Virus record (IMG/VR): IMGVR_UViG_3300023116_000210
Location: 1 to 31,112 of that record
Source: a virus
Strand: one strand, 5' to 3'
DNA length: 31,112 bases
Shown: one piece after another, positions 8,446 to 19,890 of the stretch
Layout of the letters: every line of letters begins with the position of its first letter
Numbering within the stretch: the stretch's first letter is position 1
Notes under the pieces: model-generated
What the model saw: only the letters and a program-made list of their open reading frames with translations
The model's database searches: none
Told to the model about the DNA's origin: nothing
Position numbers and translations under genes: made by a program

Positions 8446-9198
8446 TTAGTCAACGCCCCATTGGCATTCAGGCTCTTCGCCTTGTTTAAAGCTACACCAC
8501 CTACATGCAGAGGAGCTGGGTTTTGGATCGAATCTTGTAGCAGTAGTCATCGTAATTGCTCGTTGGTATATCCCAGGAAGGAACACCATTGCAGCTTCTC
8601 GTGACCATGTTTTTGTTGTGGTCTCACCTTTGTCTATGTACCAAAGCTCTGTTTGTACGTGTTCAAAATGTGGGTAACGGAGAAATGTTGCAATTGCATA
8701 CAGCAAACATTGCTGCGCATGAGATATTTCATTACCAAATTTCTTTCCTGATTTATAATCAATAACTCGCGCAGAGGTTTCGTCTTCGTTTACAAGAGCA
8801 TCTAGTTTAATTCGTGCCCATGTATCTGGTGATAACCATCCTGTTACACCCCAATCAATAGTAAATCCCCATTCTCCTTCGAGTTCTACTTTAGCTTCAG
8901 CAAAAAGTTCACGTAGTTCTTCAAATGAGGATTTAAACTTCTTAAGACTGGTAGGCAGTTCACCTAACTCTCCTTTGACATAGTCTTCTGCTTCCTGGTG
9001 GATTTGAGTACCTCTGTCAGCAGCGGGGGAAGATGGTTCCTTTACTTTCCTAACCTTAGCTATATAGGTGCGATACGGGCATTCTTCGTACACTTTAAGT
9101 GCAGAGTAAGACCACTGGGGGACAAGCCCTAGTTCTATTGGACCAGTCTCTTGCGCTTGTAAGTGCGCTGGGAGTTCGTTAGTTATTTCGTTTGACAT
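8446..9198 (-). CDS. Cas4/RecB-like PD-(D/E)XK exonuclease
   Basis: 250 aa. The protein has the full PDDEXK/Cas4-type pattern: WSYSALKVYEECPYR (29-43) with Cys40, GTQIHQEAE with His67, Asp133 in KLDAL, VIDYKSGK with Asp147 and Lys149, a QQCLLYAI helix (motif QxxxY), and Cys232, Cys235 and Cys245 at the C terminus. Cys40 with the three C-terminal cysteines is the arrangement that holds a 4Fe-4S cluster in AddB and Cas4 nucleases. It is probably a DNA end-processing nuclease for phage recombination or host DNA breakdown. There is no CRISPR array nearby, so this is not a CRISPR component. It lies directly downstream of the primase-helicase. Confidence 0.85.
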   Translation of the reverse strand: MSNEITNELPAHLQAQETGPIELGLVPQWSYSALKVYEECPYRTYIAKVRKVKEPSSPAADRGTQIHQEAEDYVKGELGELPTSLKKFKSSFEELRELFAEAKVELEGEWGFTIDWGVTGWLSPDTWARIKLDALVNEDETSARVIDYKSGKKFGNEISHAQQCLLYAIATFLRYPHFEHVQTELWYIDKGETTTKTWSREAAMVFLPGIYQRAITMTTATRFDPKPSSSACRWCSFKQGEEPECQWGVD

Positions 9199-9201
9199 GT
9201 A

Positions 9202-11688
9202 CTATACCTCGATTAGTTTTTTATCTGCGGTATCGAAGTACATTTCGATTAATCTTTCCCTAGCACCATTATCATTACGCCACTCAACTACAACTCCTCT
9301 CGCAGCTTTAGCATCACGGCCCCCATTTTTAGGGCGTTTTCTTTCAGACTTGAGTCCATAACGCCCCGCAAGCATTGAAAATTGTTTAGGTGAATGTTGC
9401 TGTTGTGAGCCTGATGCAATCATTACATTGTATACAGTCTTCATATGGTCTAGTGGGATTACTACAAAATCTTCGTTTGCGTATGCTACCCAAGACTTAA
9501 CAAAGCGTTTAGCTGCTTCTATTGCACCAGCATGCGCAATATTGTGTACGTCAAGCTGTAAGACATCTTCAAAATATTCAATATCACCTGTCTTGAATGC
9601 TTCAAAGAATTCTTGATTAGTTGAGATAGATGCTTTTCGCATAGCGTCTTTAGCGTCATTAAATATCGGTGTCTTGACTAGCATCTCGTTAACTTTAAAA
9701 ACTTTTAGATGCCCCGCAAACACATAAAGCTCTTTGTCTATTGCTTTTAGATTAGCTAATACATCTGGATGTGCGTCTTTGAGCATTGTCTCTTGGCGCG
9801 GTGCTATATTGTAGCGTCTATCTCCAGTGTCTAAAGCAACAGCATCATACCTGTTAGTTAAAAATATAAAGTTCGTATAGTTTTGAACTTCTATCTGGTT
9901 ACTGCGCATAGCCCTGATAGTCAGAGTCGGTTCAGTTATCTGGTTCTTAAGCTTATCAGCCATTTTAGATGCGCCAGATGAAGCTGAAGCCATATGGAAT
10001 TCATCAACAACCATAAAGATAGCTTGGCGCATATAGCTGTTGAATTGCTCTTCAATAGACTGCAACGATTTCATTGGCACATGGTCAATGCCAAACAGAG
10101 GCCGAAGGATGCGCGTGTAAAATAAACCTTTACCTGTTCCTTGGACACCTGTCAGTACCCAGGCGGTCATTGCTTTCTGTCGAGTTTGATAGATAAATGC
10201 CAGCCAGTTTATGAAGTATTCAAACTCTTCAACACCGTCACCAAGTATGTGCATGATTACTTTGTAAATAGTGGGGCAATGCCACTTGAGAGTTTGTGCT
10301 TCGCCAACTGTTAAAGGTTTATCGACAGCTGCTTCATTCAACATGTACTTAGATCTGCGATACAAGTTGATATCGTAAGGAACGGTATGCAGCTTAGGAG
10401 GAGAATCGTCTGTTGGATCAAAATAAATGTTAGCGTCTGGTATGTATTCGGGGGCTGTTCGGCCATGAGAAAACATAAAGGATTCAACGCCTTGGCGAGA
10501 ACTAGGAGTGAGAGGGAACTCGTCACTAAACTGATCTATATTGGGGTTGTATATACCGTTGTAAATAACGTCCGCTTTGAAGTCGCGCATGACTAAAGGA
10601 ATCATGGCGCGTTCTTTACCTCTATTTAAGTTGTCTACTAAGTCAGGTATGGTTGCAAAAAATTCAGGGTCAGCATCTTCAATAGCAAAGATAGCTTCGC
10701 CTTTGAAGTTAAACATGTAATGAGGGTTATCTAAGTTAAAGTAGTAAGCGCCGCTATCGCCACCGTTAATATTGCAGTTAACCCAAGGTAGATAGCTTGT
10801 GTTGGAAATGGTAATGGACATCCGATCAGGGTTAACAATTACCTGTTCCGCACGGTTCTCTATGTTAACAGTGCGTAGCTGGGTAGTTTTCTTCTTAAAT
10901 CCAGCTTCTTTCCTTAGTTCGTCTTTTAACTTTTCATGTTTTTCGTGGACCTGTTGTGGGTTCAAAGCCATCAATTTGTCTAAGGGAAGCTTCTCGTGTT
11001 CTTTAATTACATGCACAATTCTATGGCTTTGGTCAGGGAATTGATCTGCCATGCCATTGAACACGGGAGGGGCGATAAATATTAACTTTGAATTGTCAGC
11101 TACTGAGATATCTAAAGGGTATGTTAAAGACAAACCGTTAACTGACAATCCTACTTGACTGCGAAATACATCGATATCAAAGTTAGCGTTTTGTAGCCAC
11201 AGCTTTATAGACTTAGGTTCGAGAGGTACTGTCAACATGAACAAGATGTGCATACTTACAGTGTTGCCTTTCTTACCAAAAGAAGCTGAAGCCTGGGCAA
11301 TGTAACTAACATTCCTGAATTCTTTCGGGAAGTAGTTAGTTACAAGCTCTGCTACGCTAACTAGGTCTGCATCGGTGTAGGTAGGCTTAATAACAAAATC
11401 ATCAAAAGCAACCCCATCCAGATCTAAGACAAGCATATCTGTAAAGGCTCGCCTATCTACTTGGCCAGCACGGCTCTGTTCAGATAGCTGCTGTCTAGTG
11501 TTACCTTTTAAAAGACAATGGCCAAGTGCTGCATGTGAAACTATATGTTTATAAAAGTCAGCAGTGTCGTGTATTTCGTGTGTATAAGAGTTAACTTCTT
11601 TAACGTAAGGGTATGGAGTAACAGAGTTCGTTGAAATTTCTTTAACGAGAGGTTTTCCATTGGCTGATTCAAGAAATGTTATGTGCAT
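9202..11688 (-). CDS. Primase-helicase (AEP plus SF3)
   Basis: 828 aa. The N-terminal third shows an archaeo-eukaryotic primase/polymerase-like pattern: LVLDLDG with Asp89 and Asp91, SMH (145-147) and Asp193. The C-terminal half is a superfamily 3/D5-type helicase: Walker A GVQGTGKG (514-521), Walker B FMVVDEF (558-564) and a sensor region NFIFLTNRYDAVALDTGDRRY (605-625). Such fused proteins prime and unwind the fork in phages that also encode a family A polymerase. AGGTG lies before the ATG. It follows csrA by two bases, and polymerase, csrA and primase-helicase are clearly one unit. The AEP assignment is weaker than the helicase assignment. Confidence 0.88.
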   Translation of the reverse strand: MHITFLESANGKPLVKEISTNSVTPYPYVKEVNSYTHEIHDTADFYKHIVSHAALGHCLLKGNTRQQLSEQSRAGQVDRRAFTDMLVLDLDGVAFDDFVIKPTYTDADLVSVAELVTNYFPKEFRNVSYIAQASASFGKKGNTVSMHILFMLTVPLEPKSIKLWLQNANFDIDVFRSQVGLSVNGLSLTYPLDISVADNSKLIFIAPPVFNGMADQFPDQSHRIVHVIKEHEKLPLDKLMALNPQQVHEKHEKLKDELRKEAGFKKKTTQLRTVNIENRAEQVIVNPDRMSITISNTSYLPWVNCNINGGDSGAYYFNLDNPHYMFNFKGEAIFAIEDADPEFFATIPDLVDNLNRGKERAMIPLVMRDFKADVIYNGIYNPNIDQFSDEFPLTPSSRQGVESFMFSHGRTAPEYIPDANIYFDPTDDSPPKLHTVPYDINLYRRSKYMLNEAAVDKPLTVGEAQTLKWHCPTIYKVIMHILGDGVEEFEYFINWLAFIYQTRQKAMTAWVLTGVQGTGKGLFYTRILRPLFGIDHVPMKSLQSIEEQFNSYMRQAIFMVVDEFHMASASSGASKMADKLKNQITEPTLTIRAMRSNQIEVQNYTNFIFLTNRYDAVALDTGDRRYNIAPRQETMLKDAHPDVLANLKAIDKELYVFAGHLKVFKVNEMLVKTPIFNDAKDAMRKASISTNQEFFEAFKTGDIEYFEDVLQLDVHNIAHAGAIEAAKRFVKSWVAYANEDFVVIPLDHMKTVYNVMIASGSQQQHSPKQFSMLAGRYGLKSERKRPKNGGRDAKAARGVVVEWRNDNGARERLIEMYFDTADKKLIEV

Positions 11689-11690
11689 TC

Positions 11691-11882
11691 TTACACCTCG
11701 CCACGTTTTGTCTTGCTTTCAAAAATCTCCTTTCGATCGATGCGTACTTTTTTTGAAGCTTCAAACGATAGCCGCACATTTCCACGATCAATTCTGGTAA
11801 TAAAAATTTTACATAGGGTCTCGCCATCTTCATGGATAATGACTTCATCCCCTACACCACGAGTTAAAACTAGTCTGCTCAT
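11691..11882 (-). CDS. csrA: CsrA-family RNA-binding regulator
   Basis: 63 aa. The pattern is that of CsrA/RsmA: MSRLVLTRGVGDEVII at the N terminus (E. coli: MLILTRRVGE), a central GNVRLSFEA strand, and VRIDRKEIF (46-54), matching VAVHREEIY. Leu6 and Arg50 align with the key RNA-contacting Leu4 and Arg44 of E. coli CsrA; His43 is replaced by Asp49. CsrA dimers bind GGA in hairpin loops, often over ribosome binding sites, to block or stabilise mRNAs. The start overlaps the polymerase stop (ATGA). Several GGA-loop hairpins in this window are candidate targets. It could also rewire host mRNAs. Confidence 0.9.
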   Translation of the reverse strand: MSRLVLTRGVGDEVIIHEDGETLCKIFITRIDRGNVRLSFEASKKVRIDRKEIFESKTKRGEV

Positions 11883-13672
11883 TTAGAATACGCCTCACCA
11901 TAACTACCCTCTGCATTAAGAGGTATATCTTTGGCCCATTCTGGGGCTTTCGTCATTTCATGGATAATTGTTTGAAGGACATCTGCATGGTCTGTGCTTG
12001 CAGAAGATACTATGATTTCATCATGTACGGTCAGTACAACACGGAAGTCAGAGATCTTATTGATGCGTAAGATTGCATCGGTAATAACAAGTCTAGATAA
12101 AGCCTGGACTATATTTTCTGTGATCTTACCGCCGTAGGTGTATGTTTCTCCGTTGCGAGAATCAAAGACATAGCCTTTAGAGGTATGTCGTAAGTTTTCG
12201 TAGTAAAGAGATAGCCCGTTAGGGAGGACTATCCTATAAGGCTCTATTTGAAGGACTTTATGGGGGACATATTTATTAGTAGTCATCCAGACTAAGAAGT
12301 CTGAACACTTCGCCCATAAGTAGTTAATCAAATAAAAAGTAGCGCGGTACTTTGCAACTACTTCTTGGCACTTCATATCGTCAAGTTTTACCTGTGGACC
12401 AGCGCCTCCGCTGGCTAGGGTAGCTTGGAACTTCTTCCAGCCCATGCCGTAGCCAAGACCCAGAACGGCTGTTTTACCAACAAACCGTTCTTCGGGATAG
12501 TCTTTACCGTTGACTTCGAATCCATAGATGTCACTGGCAAAGCTTGAGTATACGTCTACGCCGTAGCGGAACTTCTCTAAGAGACTGTCTTGCCCTGCAA
12601 GCCAAGCAAGCATCCTAGCTTCGATGTTGGATAGGTCAACAGCGTAGAGCAGCTCGCCTTTTGGGGCTTTCAGACAGCGTCTTAGCTCAGAGCCGCGAGG
12701 CATGTTTTGGAAATTAAGTTTGTCAGACCCGCCAAAGCGTCCTGTGTGTGCAGCGTAATAGCGCAAAGGAATTGAGATCGTGCCATCCGGGTTAGCAGCT
12801 TCTAAAAAGCGCTTGGCACGTGTCTCGCGGAGCCTACTCTTAGTAGCAATACGTGCATCCCACAGGTCTTTATGCTCTGGGTAATCTTTGACCAGCTGCT
12901 GGAAGCCTGGGTCATTCTTACCGAATGCAGGAATTAACTTGTTAGTAGCAGGGGACAACTTTTTAGGAGGCTCAATGCCAAGAGACTCAAGGATAGCTTC
13001 AAACTTGGAGTTCGAAGCCAGGTCTTCGCGAGAGTAGCCAGACAGCTCTATAAGCTGTTCTGCGGCAGCTTTCTCTCGTTGATGGATAGCTGTTACCTGT
13101 TCCGTGTCAAGAATCATACGGGGTTCTGTGAACATCTTGATGGTAGCATCAATTACTTCTAGCTCTGACTGCGGAAAGTCTGCCCATTTCTTGTAGATAG
13201 CGTAAGTCAGCTCTACGTCTTGTATACAGTAGTCAGCGATATCTTGTTCTAAGTTAGGGGGAAGGTCATAAATCCCTTTAGCGGATGAAAGAGCATCGCC
13301 TTTCCTCATGCTAATATCGTCTGGAAACAGCCTTTCAGCGACTGCTCTTAGAGATGAGCTGTGGCCTGGATACATGGCGCGAGCCATAGAAGCTGTATCT
13401 AAATAGAACTGAGGTTTGTATCCATAGATGCGGGTGAGTATAGCCCCATCGAAAGCTGTGTTATGGGCAAGAATAGTTGTTTCTTCCCATAACAAACTAC
13501 TAAGGGCCATATCAACTTCGTCACCGCTAAACCACTCTGTAGGGGAGTCTTCTATCTTAATCCCTAACCCCCACACCTTAAAGTCAGGGTGGTGGATGTA
13601 CTGCATTGTGGTTTGTTTGGTAAGAGTTACATCCTTGGAGTAATAAGTTTCAAAATCTATAGTAACTAGCAT
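11879..13672 (-). CDS. polA: Family A DNA polymerase with 3'-5' exonuclease
   Basis: 597 aa. Exonuclease motifs: DFE (Asp6, Glu8), HNTAFD with Asp75, and DYCIQD with Asp152. Polymerase motifs: A, AVDLSNIEAR (Asp346, Glu351); B, R396-x3-K400 ... Y408-G409; C, VHDE (549-552) with Asp551. There is no 5'-3' exonuclease domain. The position equivalent to E. coli Phe762 is Leu404. It is the replicative polymerase of the phage. The start codon shares a TAATG junction with the preceding small gene; csrA overlaps the end. Confidence 0.95.
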   Translation of the reverse strand: MLVTIDFETYYSKDVTLTKQTTMQYIHHPDFKVWGLGIKIEDSPTEWFSGDEVDMALSSLLWEETTILAHNTAFDGAILTRIYGYKPQFYLDTASMARAMYPGHSSSLRAVAERLFPDDISMRKGDALSSAKGIYDLPPNLEQDIADYCIQDVELTYAIYKKWADFPQSELEVIDATIKMFTEPRMILDTEQVTAIHQREKAAAEQLIELSGYSREDLASNSKFEAILESLGIEPPKKLSPATNKLIPAFGKNDPGFQQLVKDYPEHKDLWDARIATKSRLRETRAKRFLEAANPDGTISIPLRYYAAHTGRFGGSDKLNFQNMPRGSELRRCLKAPKGELLYAVDLSNIEARMLAWLAGQDSLLEKFRYGVDVYSSFASDIYGFEVNGKDYPEERFVGKTAVLGLGYGMGWKKFQATLASGGAGPQVKLDDMKCQEVVAKYRATFYLINYLWAKCSDFLVWMTTNKYVPHKVLQIEPYRIVLPNGLSLYYENLRHTSKGYVFDSRNGETYTYGGKITENIVQALSRLVITDAILRINKISDFRVVLTVHDEIIVSSASTDHADVLQTIIHEMTKAPEWAKDIPLNAEGSYGEAYSK

Positions 13673-13839
13673 TATTTCTCTTCCTTTGCTGTGCGGAGAC
13701 TGTAATGCCGTTTGTCTTGAAACTCATAGCTTTTACACACTCCTTGTGGGATATGCTGAATAACACCGCCTTTGGCTAAAAACTTTTTAGTATGCTTGGC
13801 GATTTCTTCCCGTAGTTTGTCTCTTTCTTCTTGCGTCAT
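13672..13839 (-). CDS. 55-aa basic protein
   Basis: A small gene (MTQEERDKLREEIAKH... to TAKEEK). It fits exactly between two coupled junctions: ATGA with the upstream gene and TAATG with the polymerase, which strongly supports it. It has an N-terminal charged helix followed by KKFLAKGGVIQHIPQG, similar in shape to the FLxxGGxIxxxPxG segment of small phage DNA-binding-like proteins. Function is unknown. The ribosome binding site is weak, consistent with coupled translation. Confidence 0.65.
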   Translation of the reverse strand: MTQEERDKLREEIAKHTKKFLAKGGVIQHIPQGVCKSYEFQDKRHYSLRTAKEEK

Positions 13840-14204
13840 AAAGGCTCGCAAAAAGTATGCAGGCCAGAGATAACATCGTTACCTGGAGAGACATGTAAGT
13901 AGCTTGCGCCATTTCTTCTAGCGACTTGCAGCAAACTAACAAAAGCAAAGGAAAAGCTGTAGTTAATTAGCTCTTGGTATACTGAGTTTTCATCTTCAGG
14001 AACAAGAATAAAACAAGGGTCAGTACCTATAACGTATAATCTGGGGCAAGTGTGTAAAAGACCTTGGTCTAGCTTAGAAAGATGCTCTGTACTTACATGA
14101 AGTATTTCAGAAAGGGCATTCTTCAGAGGTATCGTGGGCTTGGATGTCTCGTAAAGAGGTATGGTGGTCTTGGATGGCTCGTAAAGCAACGACATTTGGC
14201 TCAA
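13836..14204 (-). CDS. Hypothetical protein with decapeptide repeat
   Basis: 122 aa, not recognised. Residues 7-26 contain two near-identical decapeptides (LYEPSKTTIP and LYETSKPTIP) made by a 30-bp tandem duplication. The rest looks globular, with an ARRNGASYLHVSPGNDVISGL motif near the end. It overlaps the preceding gene by 98 bases; the repeat lies in the overlap. Where translation starts is not certain; a later start would remove the overlap and the repeat. Confidence 0.5.
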   Translation of the reverse strand: MSQMSLLYEPSKTTIPLYETSKPTIPLKNALSEILHVSTEHLSKLDQGLLHTCPRLYVIGTDPCFILVPEDENSVYQELINYSFSFAFVSLLQVARRNGASYLHVSPGNDVISGLHTFCEPL

Positions 14205-14358: not shown

Positions 14359-14425
14359 GAATCCCTCCGGGAAAAGTAAATAGTAGTTTAGGTAATACAG
14401 ATAGGCAAGAAAAAATATAGATAAG

Positions 14426-15311: not shown

Positions 15312-15486
15312 GAGCTATCCTCATTGATTGTGCAGAGCTATACACCGCTCCTTGTGTGAAAGCTAAACGAACTATATGAACCAAGACATCGGATAAACCA
15401 ACACCTTCTAGTTCTTTACGTATAGCATCACACTCTTCTACGATGTTATCTATTTCATAATCAAATTCATCATTTGTCATCGTCAT
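15274..15486 (-). CDS. Small hypothetical protein
   Basis: 70 aa starting MTMTNDEFDYEIDNI. GTG one codon upstream and ATG two codons downstream are alternative starts; the ribosome binding site (GGGTG) is weak. Helical, acidic N terminus, with a VHIVRLAFTQGAVYSSA segment. It overlaps both neighbours (17 and 38 bases). No family is recognised. Confidence 0.5.
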   Translation of the reverse strand: MTMTNDEFDYEIDNIVEECDAIRKELEGVGLSDVLVHIVRLAFTQGAVYSSAQSMRIAHGSNNNSDTLGL

Positions 15487-15892
15487 CACCCATGTTTACC
15501 CATTGCTGCCAATTAGGGTTAGAGAAATCAACGAACTCACTATAGTTTTCTACCATCTCTTCTAAGACCTTCTTTCTATTACGAGCTGTTTTTTCATCAT
15601 GAAAGTCTTGAAGCATAGAAAAGAAATAGATCTCGTCTAGGATTAGTTGAGGGATAGGAAAGTCTTTATTGGTATACAGATAGATGTCGTGTATTGATTG
15701 GATGCTTCCTTTATATGTCATCAGTTCTGCACAATCATGATCAAGAAGCCATCCAACAGCGCAGTGATTTCCTTTGCCATCGCTGTAGGCACATAATGGT
15801 TTCTCATCATCATCATGAGAGAACATACACTGGCCACCTTGTTGAACTATTTTCTTTACTGCGAAATCAGCAGCTTGCTGTAGTGTTTCCAT
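15470..15892 (-). CDS. Conserved phage protein (CAVGWLL motif)
   Basis: 140 aa. Notable segments are CMFSHDDDEKPLCAYSDGKGNHCAV with a following GWLL, three cysteines in residues 22-44, and a WQQWVNMGDDDDK end. Phage proteins with a CAYxxGxGxHCAIGWLL-like motif are common and uncharacterised. The AGGAG ribosome binding site is in the loop of a CGCC/GGCG hairpin (15898-15910). Confidence 0.6.
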   Translation of the reverse strand: METLQQAADFAVKKIVQQGGQCMFSHDDDEKPLCAYSDGKGNHCAVGWLLDHDCAELMTYKGSIQSIHDIYLYTNKDFPIPQLILDEIYFFSMLQDFHDEKTARNRKKVLEEMVENYSEFVDFSNPNWQQWVNMGDDDDK

Positions 15893-15919
15893 AAGTACGC
15901 CCTCCTGGCGGTGTGTTGT

Positions 15920-16194: not shown

Positions 16195-16422
16195 TTAGTG
16201 AATCGTGGGTTTGTCTGATCCTAGTTGATCTATTTTCTTAAGGATAAGAACAAGTACTTCGTTAGCTTTGTCCTCGAATACATAGTCCATCATCTCTTTG
16301 ACAGGGATGAGGACTGAAGCTGCCAGATCTTCTGGTTCAAGGACAAACTCTATCTCTTCCTGGATCATTGCTTCATGAACTGTAGATGATATGTCAGCCA
16401 TCAGCTGTGCTTTGTCTTTCAT
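16195..16422 (-). CDS. Small hypothetical protein
   Basis: 75 aa, acidic and helical (MKDKAQLMADISSTVHEAMIQEEIEFV...). The start shares a TAATG junction with the DUF3846 gene; AGGA lies upstream. No family is recognised. Confidence 0.55.
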   Translation of the reverse strand: MKDKAQLMADISSTVHEAMIQEEIEFVLEPEDLAASVLIPVKEMMDYVFEDKANEVLVLILKKIDQLGSDKPTIH

Positions 16423-16805
16423 TATATTTGTCCTATTGTTAGAGATTCCTGCAAGATAGGACGTATTTCTGGGTATTGTAATGCTTCGAACGCTGATACC
16501 CAGACAATGTCCTGCTCTAAATCGTCAATTGTGAACTGTGTACTGACAGATTCTCCATACTTATCTGATCCAAGCACGAGTCCATAACCTGCAAGTGGAT
16601 AGCGCCAATTGCTAAGCATGAAGAATCTAGTGCTAGTGTTAGCTGTCAATAGACCATCGTCAGCTATATATACTCCTTCATTTTCGCCAATACGAACGTG
16701 ATCAAACATAGCTGCGCGTATATGCTTTTGGATATCTTTGTAGTCGTCTAAGTGTTCGACTTCTGTGATGGTTTGTTTGTATGGGTCTATCAGTAGAGCT
16801 TTCAT
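16422..16805 (-). CDS. DUF3846 family protein
   Basis: 127 aa. MKALLIDPYKQTITEVEHLDDYKDI at the start, FDHVRIGENEGVYIADDGLL in the middle and PLAGYGLVLGSDKYGE are the DUF3846 pattern, found in many phages and plasmids with unknown function. AGAGGAA lies before the ATG. An intrinsic terminator ends just upstream of the ribosome binding site, so this gene starts a new transcript segment or depends on read-through. Confidence 0.8.
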   Translation of the reverse strand: MKALLIDPYKQTITEVEHLDDYKDIQKHIRAAMFDHVRIGENEGVYIADDGLLTANTSTRFFMLSNWRYPLAGYGLVLGSDKYGESVSTQFTIDDLEQDIVWVSAFEALQYPEIRPILQESLTIGQI

Positions 16806-18078: not shown

Positions 18079-18362
18079 ATGTGTACCATGTGTACCGGGT
18101 GTGTACCGGGTAAAAAGGGGGATGTGGTACACAATTTCTTGTTATTTATCAGTTATTTATATTAATGTGTACCATGTGTACCACCAAAACAATAAAAATA
18201 AGACCTAAAAAACAGGCATGTATATTTTTTTGTTTCTGTAAGTATGTCCAAAAGACATGGTACACGTGGTACACGCGGTACACATAACTGTAAGTTGTTG
18301 AATGTTAAGGGTTAAATGTGTACCGGGTAGATGATTTTACATGGTACACATGTGGTACACAT
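18079..18362. repeat. GTGTACC iteron-like array; candidate origin
   Basis: Twelve copies of the 7-mer GTGTACC or its complement GGTACAC occur in 280 bp: forward at 18081, 18090, 18101, 18167, 18176 and 18318; reverse at 18126, 18259, 18268, 18277, 18343 and 18354. Eight extend to the exact 9-mer ATGTGTACC. Copies in a cluster are 9-11 bp apart, so they lie on one face of the helix. AT-rich tracts (about 18131-18166 and 18183-18245) lie between clusters. No gene is present. This is the form of an iteron origin or a multi-site operator. Confidence 0.7.
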
Positions 18363-18876: not shown

Positions 18877-19101
18877 TTAGTTAATAGATTCTGCTATCTC
18901 TTCGACATCGCCATCGATATCAACGATTGCTATGGTAAGTGCAAGCATGAATGCATCGCTTGGGTTCTCCTTCACCCAGTTAATCGTATTCCCGAATGCG
19001 CCTTTGGCATCGGCTAGTAAAGCGCCAGCTGTTTTCTTAGCCTTGTTGATGCGGCGGGTTCTCTTTGCTTTCTGTGCTTTAGTACTTTTGAGTTTGAGCA
19101 T
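18877..19101 (-). CDS. 74-aa basic early protein with hydrophobic segment
   Basis: The first 25 residues are very rich in Lys and Arg (KSTKAQKAKRTRRINKAKK), followed by a helix and a hydrophobic stretch (AFMLALTIAIVDI, 50-62) and an acidic tail. It is first in the small leftward unit. The ribosome binding site AGGAG sits in the loop of a CTAAC/GTTAG hairpin, with a second GGA-loop hairpin 37 bases further upstream. No family is recognised. Confidence 0.65.
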   Translation of the reverse strand: MLKLKSTKAQKAKRTRRINKAKKTAGALLADAKGAFGNTINWVKENPSDAFMLALTIAIVDIDGDVEEIAESIN

Positions 19102-19103
19102 TG

Positions 19104-19160
19104 CTAACTCCTGTTAGTTAATAGTTGATAGTTGTTAAGTTAGTAACTCCTACTAACTTA
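19104..19160 (-). promoter_or_regulatory. Paired GGA-loop hairpins over a ribosome binding site
   Basis: Minus strand, in order: TAAGTTAGTA, loop GGAGT, TACTAACTTA (19160-19136; perfect 10-bp stem), then after 18 bases CTAAC, loop AGGA, GTTAG (19117-19104), the latter holding the ribosome binding site of the 74-aa gene. Two GGA loops, one on the ribosome binding site and about 37 bases apart, is the standard layout of a CsrA-repressed leader. Confidence 0.6.
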
Positions 19161-19419: not shown

Positions 19420-19890
19420 ATGACTGAAAAACGAACTTGTAAAATCTGCAAAAAGTCGCTACCTAGCACTCAATACTCGATGCGAGAGGGCTATCTGTCG
19501 CTAACATGTAACAAATGCTCTCAGCGACAACGCAACATACGAATCAGTGCTACCCCCGACTCTTACCTCCGTGTTGTATTTAATAGTGCTAAGCACCAAG
19601 CAACTTCTGGGAAGCGCAAGAAAGACTGGACCTTAGAGGTAGAAGATATCTTTGAGATATGGGCTAAGCAGGAGGGCAAGTGCGCTTTATCGGGCGTACT
19701 GATGACTTACGCAAGGGACGGGCAGGGCAGCAAAGATCTGAATGTATCCATTGATCGTATTGACCCAACGCTAGGATATGTTACTGGCAACGTACAGTTG
19801 GTGTCTTATCGAGTAAATCTTATGAAGCACACCCTGACGGAAGACGTTTTTTTCTGGTGGGTCAGAAATTTATATAATTTTTCTTGCTAG
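19420..19890 (+). CDS. HNH-type endonuclease
   Basis: 156 aa. An N-terminal zinc knuckle (Cys7, Cys10, Cys30, Cys33) is followed by the HNH region: KCALSG (87-92), VSIDRID (109-115), GYVTGNVQLV (119-128) and a final NLMK (133-136). In this variant SIDRID stands where classic HNH proteins have DHI. HNH proteins beside the terminase genes are often needed for DNA packaging, but a homing role is also possible. No ribosome binding site precedes the ATG. It is the first gene of the right arm. Confidence 0.8.
   Translation: MTEKRTCKICKKSLPSTQYSMREGYLSLTCNKCSQRQRNIRISATPDSYLRVVFNSAKHQATSGKRKKDWTLEVEDIFEIWAKQEGKCALSGVLMTYARDGQGSKDLNVSIDRIDPTLGYVTGNVQLVSYRVNLMKHTLTEDVFFWWVRNLYNFSC

Follow-up and report, generated by a model that had tools for sequence, protein, structure and literature searches.

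A CsrA-family protein in the replication operon of an uncultured phage lineage is probably a translational regulator of phage early mRNAs

Genes for CsrA-family RNA-binding proteins have been found in 30 of 2,517 phage genomes (PMC7366521); they are also known from IMG/VR contigs, and suppression of CRISPR-Cas or a change in host physiology has been suggested as their function (PMC8450108). The IMG/VR virus record IMGVR_UViG_3300023116_000210, 31,112 bases long, classed 'linear' and analyzed here over its full length (the window), carries such a gene between the genes of a DNA polymerase and a primase-helicase, and raises the question of what a CsrA does inside a phage replication operon. Comparison of this locus with its relatives leads us to propose that phage CsrA probably controls translation of early mRNAs of the phage itself, most likely by negative autoregulation of the replication operon.

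The csrA gene (11691..11882, minus strand) encodes the 63-aa protein MSRLVLTRGVGDEVIIHEDGETLCKIFITRIDRGNVRLSFEASKKVRIDRKEIFESKTKRGEV. Its ATG overlaps the polymerase stop codon as ...TCTAAATGAGC (ATGA), and 2 nt separate its own stop codon from the primase ATG. A preliminary description of this DNA had reported a 63-aa CsrA homologue in this place and with this overlap, leaving the strand unstated, and had held that the RNA contacts of E. coli CsrA are kept; both statements were borne out, and two of the checks that it had suggested, an HMM search and a structure prediction, agree with them. Against Pfam PF02599 (CsrA) the protein scored 39.7 bits (cut-off 27, E = 4.7e-10), which places it in the family; this was the sole match to PF02599 within the record. 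The AlphaFold2 monomer model has a pLDDT of 91 and a CsrA fold, and its top PDB matches are all CsrA, RsmA, or RsmE (probability 1.00, TM 0.7-0.82), with Foldseek E values of 0.007 or weaker for this 63-aa query. Leu6 and Arg50 align with the E. coli RNA contacts Leu4 and Arg44, also in the PDB alignment. In contrast, the score against the NCBIfam TIGR00202 equivalog was 36 bits (cut-off 70.1). Because it falls below this cut-off, the phage protein is, judged by its sequence, a diverged family member rather than a recent capture of a bacterial CsrA. It shares with bacterial CsrA, RsmA, and RsmE (PF02599; PDB 2JPP, 2MFC, 2BTI, 7YR6) the sequence family, the predicted fold, and the equivalents of Leu4, Arg6, Ala36, and Arg44, but has an extra N-terminal Ser-Arg and a longer beta2-beta3 hairpin; across the phage lineage, His43 is mostly replaced by Asp and Pro37 mostly by Asp or Glu.

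IMG/VR was scanned with the csrA protein, with a primase alignment, and with a polymerase alignment, the latter two being independent of csrA. The csrA-protein scan returned 80 loci, all with csrA and nearly all with polymerase and primase genes on either side; the few that do not show both flanking genes are cut at contig ends. In the primase scan csrA was present in 80 of 80 loci, in the polymerase scan in 76 of 80, and in a genome scan in 3 of 3. Every listed polymerase-scan locus that has this primase type carries csrA between the two genes, and of the four loci without csrA, one is on a truncated contig, the other three being from contigs of a lineage in which this primase is missing as well. 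Distances between csrA sequences follow those of polymerase and primase (Mantel 0.75), and the median dN/dS of 0.14 (72 close pairs) indicates purifying selection. A chance origin of the open reading frame (ORF) is excluded by its constant position in well over 100 distinct contigs and by the purifying selection acting on it. The csrA-protein scans over-represent the peptide MSRLVLTR, which was a search pattern; hence conservation was remeasured on 113 distinct csrA sequences from the polymerase and primase scans, found without a csrA query. The Arg44 equivalent is kept in all 113, that of Leu4 in 110, and that of Arg6 in 111. We conclude that csrA belongs to the core genes of a large lineage, in which it is universal and passed on vertically, a point that the preliminary description had overlooked.

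This lineage is mostly uncultured, and its habitat is probably mostly aquatic. The nearest cultured relatives by primase (about 30% identity), Aeromonas phage phiA008 and Pseudomonas phages KPP25 and phiR18, all lack csrA, and a search of cultured phages with the window CsrA protein gave no match. Two candidates in the polymerase-primase gap of other phages were rejected as csrA: the ORF in phiA008 is zinc-finger-like, and a 'transcription repressor' in MW202496 is not CsrA-like. A host assignment from contigs of metagenome-assembled genomes was not trusted, there being only three such contigs, from three different phyla.

The textbook CsrA site is a GGA-loop hairpin over a Shine-Dalgarno sequence (PMC7652899). 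When genes were called in all loci and grouped into families, and the leaders of each family were tested, the strongest leader family proved to be that of the gene directly upstream of the polymerase. This family, fam8, encodes a protein of 60-80 aa (for example L011:425-613 and homologues) that has no Pfam/family or PDB match and an all-helical AlphaFold2 model (pLDDT 91.5). The stems on its leaders include CAUCC-AGGA-GGAUG, CACCU-AGGA-GGGUG, CUCG-AGGAA-CGAG, ACGUC-AGGAG-GACGU, GUCAU-AGGAG-AUGAC, and others. Among the 18 distinct fam8 leaders with 5-nt loops, 88.9% of cells were paired compared with 49% after shuffling, and 31 double compensatory changes were counted compared with 7.3 in shuffled leaders (0/500); sliding the registers by one to three columns left at most 7 double changes. 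A second class of fam8 leaders, which includes that of the window, gave 14 double changes compared with 4.6 (0/500). Both sets had been sorted by register beforehand, which favours pairing. In an unsorted test, with one sequence per 70%-identity cluster and permuted right arms, 20 of 31 stems (14 distinct ones) had at least four Watson-Crick pairs, where 4.0 were expected.

Similar hairpins were found before other genes. In many relatives the primase Shine-Dalgarno lies inside a hairpin with an AGGA loop, the stem of which varies between subclades. In another subclade an unrelated gene, fam22, which encodes a 'VYVKRNP' protein (L177, L179, L182, L188, and others), replaces fam8 before the polymerase, and a leader hairpin of the same type is present in 8 of 9 cases (3.8 expected). 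In some fam22 members another GGA hairpin lies about 20 nt farther upstream, a spacing that falls within the 10-63 nt range of CsrA bridging (PMC7652899). GGA-in-loop sites over the Shine-Dalgarno and two-site leaders are both known from bacterial CsrA, RsmA, and RsmE. Leaders of fam23, fam27, fam87, and fam120 also have the hairpin, the last three on small numbers. Pooled over the csrA lineage, 151 of 2,005 distinct leaders carry a GGA-loop hairpin of -1.5 kcal/mol or better, compared with 57 when arms were permuted (z = -13.5).

In ten loci without csrA (including T7, N4, SIO1, HMO-2011, KPP25, and phiA008), 16 hairpins were detected and 12.6 expected; 539 leaders of HMO-2011-type marine contigs gave 12 and 8.4, respectively. 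Within the csrA lineage, neither loops centred on TAA, AAA, ACA, or TTA nor GGA hairpins inside genes were enriched, and GGA at -58..-30 was mildly enriched, as expected of second sites. Among the targets considered in the preliminary description, only phage mRNAs gained support, from covarying GGA-loop hairpins over phage Shine-Dalgarno sequences that are absent in csrA-less phages; host carbon and virulence mRNAs gained none.

How could such sites act on the operon? Throughout the lineage, overlapping stop and start codons join fam8 to the polymerase gene and the latter to csrA (median gaps -1 nt). The leader of csrA itself gave no hairpin signal (0 of 24) and was rejected as an autoregulatory site, csrA being coupled to the polymerase gene. 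Because of the overlapping codons and the hairpin-less csrA leader, a single ribosome entry at the fam8 Shine-Dalgarno would control fam8, polymerase, and csrA. A primase hairpin was found in 50 of 93 loci in which the gap between csrA and primase exceeds 15 nt, but in only 1 of 25 in which it is at most 10 nt. The window primase, which starts 2 nt from the csrA stop, lacks the hairpin, as this rule predicts. The primase-leader hairpin was therefore rejected as a universal site: it is present in part of the lineage only, and coupling explains its absence elsewhere.

In the mechanism that we propose, a dimer of phage CsrA would bind the leader hairpins and block entry of the 30S subunit at the first gene of the fam8-polymerase-csrA unit; translational coupling would then shut down fam8, polymerase, and csrA itself. 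Primase would be repressed through coupling to csrA or through its own hairpin, and some further phage genes with GGA-loop leaders may be repressed too. Accumulated CsrA would in this way cap the amount of replication proteins and leave more ribosomes to late mRNAs, like RegA in T4.

Other explanations were weighed against the same data. Phage CsrA might be aimed at host mRNAs that govern carbon flux, motility, or CRISPR-Cas, the phage hairpins being incidental or secondary. Campa et al. 2021 put forward such a takeover for phage RsmA/CsrA, noting that RsmA represses cas operons and that phage csrA co-occurs with host csrA (PMC8450108), and the window protein does retain the general GGA-binding residues. 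However, under this explanation one would not expect phage leaders to carry covarying GGA hairpins that are missing in controls, nor does it account for the fact that all members have csrA fixed inside the replication operon and coupled to it. We regard it as unlikely to be the main function, although action on host mRNAs and on phage mRNAs can coexist. More doubtful is the idea that the hairpins are sites for host CsrA, through which the phage would sense the Csr state of its host, with its own CsrA mimicking or topping up the supply. CsrA-type sites would bind either protein, and the correlation of phage csrA with host csrA (Campa et al., PMC8450108) fits this idea, but csrA-less marine and cultured phages have no such sites even though several infect csrA-positive hosts such as E. 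coli, a control genome of which was positive in the CsrA search. It is very improbable that the hairpins are a CsrA-independent translation element, for ribosome standby or display of the Shine-Dalgarno, and csrA an unrelated passenger. The Shine-Dalgarno is always in the loop and stems of 4-6 bp could tune initiation on their own, yet csrA-less relatives with the same polymerase and primase type (phiA008, KPP25) show no enrichment, and a passenger would be neither universal nor under purifying selection. A virion-borne or structural role, suggested for CsrA of the Bcep22-like phage JC1 after one peptide of gp47 was detected in virions by mass spectrometry (PMC9144972), is scarcely credible here, since JC1 csrA lies among head genes, between portal and capsid, whereas the present gene belongs to a replication operon on the strand opposite to the late genes.

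Several observations weigh against regulation of phage mRNAs by phage CsrA, or limit how far it can be taken. Many of the loops have 4-5 nt and are not the ideal ANGGAN hexaloop. The families tested were ranked after about 50 had been looked at; related sequences inflate the z-scores, an effect that the one-per-cluster test lessens but does not remove; and the correlation between primase gap and hairpin is uncorrected for phylogeny. The controls are essentially other lineages, so that the association of csrA with hairpins rests on one csrA-positive clade. Leader hairpins are not enriched in phage F116, whose csrA lies elsewhere in the genome; the regulon is therefore a property of this lineage and not of every phage csrA. 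In the window itself only three leaders are candidates, at nominal p values of 0.002-0.024 among about 28 tested; the hairpin of the fam8 leader is short, a fourth leader (before 5750) is marginal and has no Shine-Dalgarno in place, and the primase leader, when tested, showed no GGA hairpin. Finally, activation instead of repression is possible, CsrA being capable of both, and host CsrA could bind the hairpins instead.

The annotation of the F116 genome (L239) has two candidate CsrA-like genes: one for a 68-aa 'CsrA-like regulator' among structural genes (33363..33569), and one for a 123-aa 'transcriptional regulator' (16229..16600) that scores 21.6 bits against the HMM of the lineage csrA.

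An antagonist of the CsrB/RsmZ type was also looked for. No Rfam match was found in the window, and among 231 loci there were only 9 clusters of three GGA hairpins per 120 nt, none with uniform AGGA loops. The phage protein differs from its bacterial counterparts in being phage-borne, in having phage mRNAs as its likely targets, and in the lack of a detected CsrB-like sponge. Many CsrA-bearing bacteria also have no CsrB/RsmZ-type RNA, and so the missing sponge does not count against membership in the CsrA family.

The left part of the window is transcribed leftwards from the minus strand and holds the replication genes; from about 19,400 onward, genes for terminase, portal, and capsid are read to the right. 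Features of the operon and candidate sites are listed in Table 1.

Table 1. Features of the csrA region and candidate CsrA sites in the window
Feature	Position	Strand	Remarks
Cas4/RecB-like exonuclease	8446..9198	minus	Last gene of the conserved polymerase-csrA-primase-exonuclease block
Primase-helicase (DUF5906 / VapE-like, phrog_24712)	9202..11688	minus	Starts 2 nt past the csrA stop; no GGA hairpin of its own
csrA, 63-aa CsrA-family RNA-binding protein (binding predicted)	11691..11882	minus	ATG start; Pfam, AlphaFold2, residue alignment
DNA polymerase, family A, with 3'-5' exonuclease domain	11879..13672	minus	Domain matches
55-aa ORF	13672..13838	minus	Stop overlaps polymerase start (TAATG)
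ORF, start uncertain, DUF5983-like (just under cut-off)	13836..14204	minus	Between fam8 homologue and polymerase; stop overlaps next ATG
fam8 homologue, 83 aa	14107..14358	minus	hhalign to fam8 profile, 97% probability, E 7e-11
Candidate CsrA site, UUCC-CGGA-GGGA / UCCC-GGA-GGGA hairpin over Shine-Dalgarno of fam8 homologue	14362..14373	minus	Shuffle p 0.024; in covarying set
140-aa gene of unknown function (phrog_17693-like), candidate CsrA target	15470..15892	minus	
Candidate CsrA site CGCC-AGGAG-GGCG before gene 15470..15892	15898..15910	minus	Shine-Dalgarno in loop; p 0.018
74-aa gene of unknown function, candidate CsrA target	18877..19101	minus	Two sites
Candidate CsrA site CUAAC-AGGA-GUUAG over Shine-Dalgarno of gene 18877..19101	19104..19117	minus	p 0.002
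Second, upstream GGA-loop hairpin UAAGUUAGUA-GGAGU-UACUAACUUA in leader of gene 18877..19101	19136..19160	minus	

The strongest candidate leader of the window is that of the 74-aa gene, the two GGA hairpins of which are 39 nt apart. This gene adjoins a noncoding repeat array (18079..18362) near the divergence of early and late genes, in which GTGTACC/GGTACAC recurs about ten times, in both orientations and often at intervals of 9 bp; the array looks like replication-origin iterons or clustered operators. Elsewhere in the window, the protein encoded at 861..1568 matches the Pam3 phage gp34-like family (174 bits) and belongs to fam11, which is conserved across the csrA lineage. The product of 19420..19890 is an Endonuclease VII/HNH-like protein (86 bits), with further, weak matches (33-39 bits) to PHROG families that bear the names host sigma70 decoy and Srd anti-sigma factor.

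A functional parallel is found in T4: its regA gene has a fixed place in the core replication cluster, and RegA represses about 30 mRNAs (PMC3014915). Like phage CsrA in its proposed role, RegA is a small RNA-binding repressor encoded among replication genes, and it acts on translation initiation regions of many early mRNAs (PMC3014915). However, the folds are unrelated, and the RegA motif consists of A+U-rich unstructured AUG regions rather than GGA hairpin loops; no match to RegA was found in the sequence or fold of the phage CsrA, which has the CsrA fold. The likeness is one of functional analogy and not of homology. The autogenous repressors gp32 and gp43 of T4 are likewise products of the replication module that repress their own mRNA, but they are themselves replication proteins, whereas here a dedicated global-regulator fold would act on several leaders. 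Cultured-phage CsrA proteins (F116, Bcep22-like phages including JC1, GP4, and others; phrog_9500, phrog_5527) are also phage-encoded members of the CsrA family, but their genes have been called morons, and that of F116 lies among structural and other genes; covarying sites on phage mRNAs were not seen in F116.

We lean, with some reserve, toward the wider view that CsrA has become, by domestication in this lineage, a core post-transcriptional switch similar to RegA, which would combine autoregulation of the replication operon with repression of other genes with GGA leaders in the passage from early to late expression. In the open-access literature searched we found neither phage CsrA sites described on phage mRNAs nor a replication-operon csrA shared by a whole lineage, although absence there is not proof. 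Phage CsrA itself is known; its core replication role and a covarying phage regulon appear to be new.

Phage csrA genes have so far been classed as morons or as weapons against the host, acting on CRISPR-Cas or metabolism. In the present lineage, covariation lets the targets be read from the phage's own genome, and the question of what a phage CsrA does becomes directly testable. If our proposal is true, a very widespread group of environmental phages would have evolved, independently, a second answer to the problem that T4 solves by RegA, with an early-to-late switch built from a global regulator of the host.
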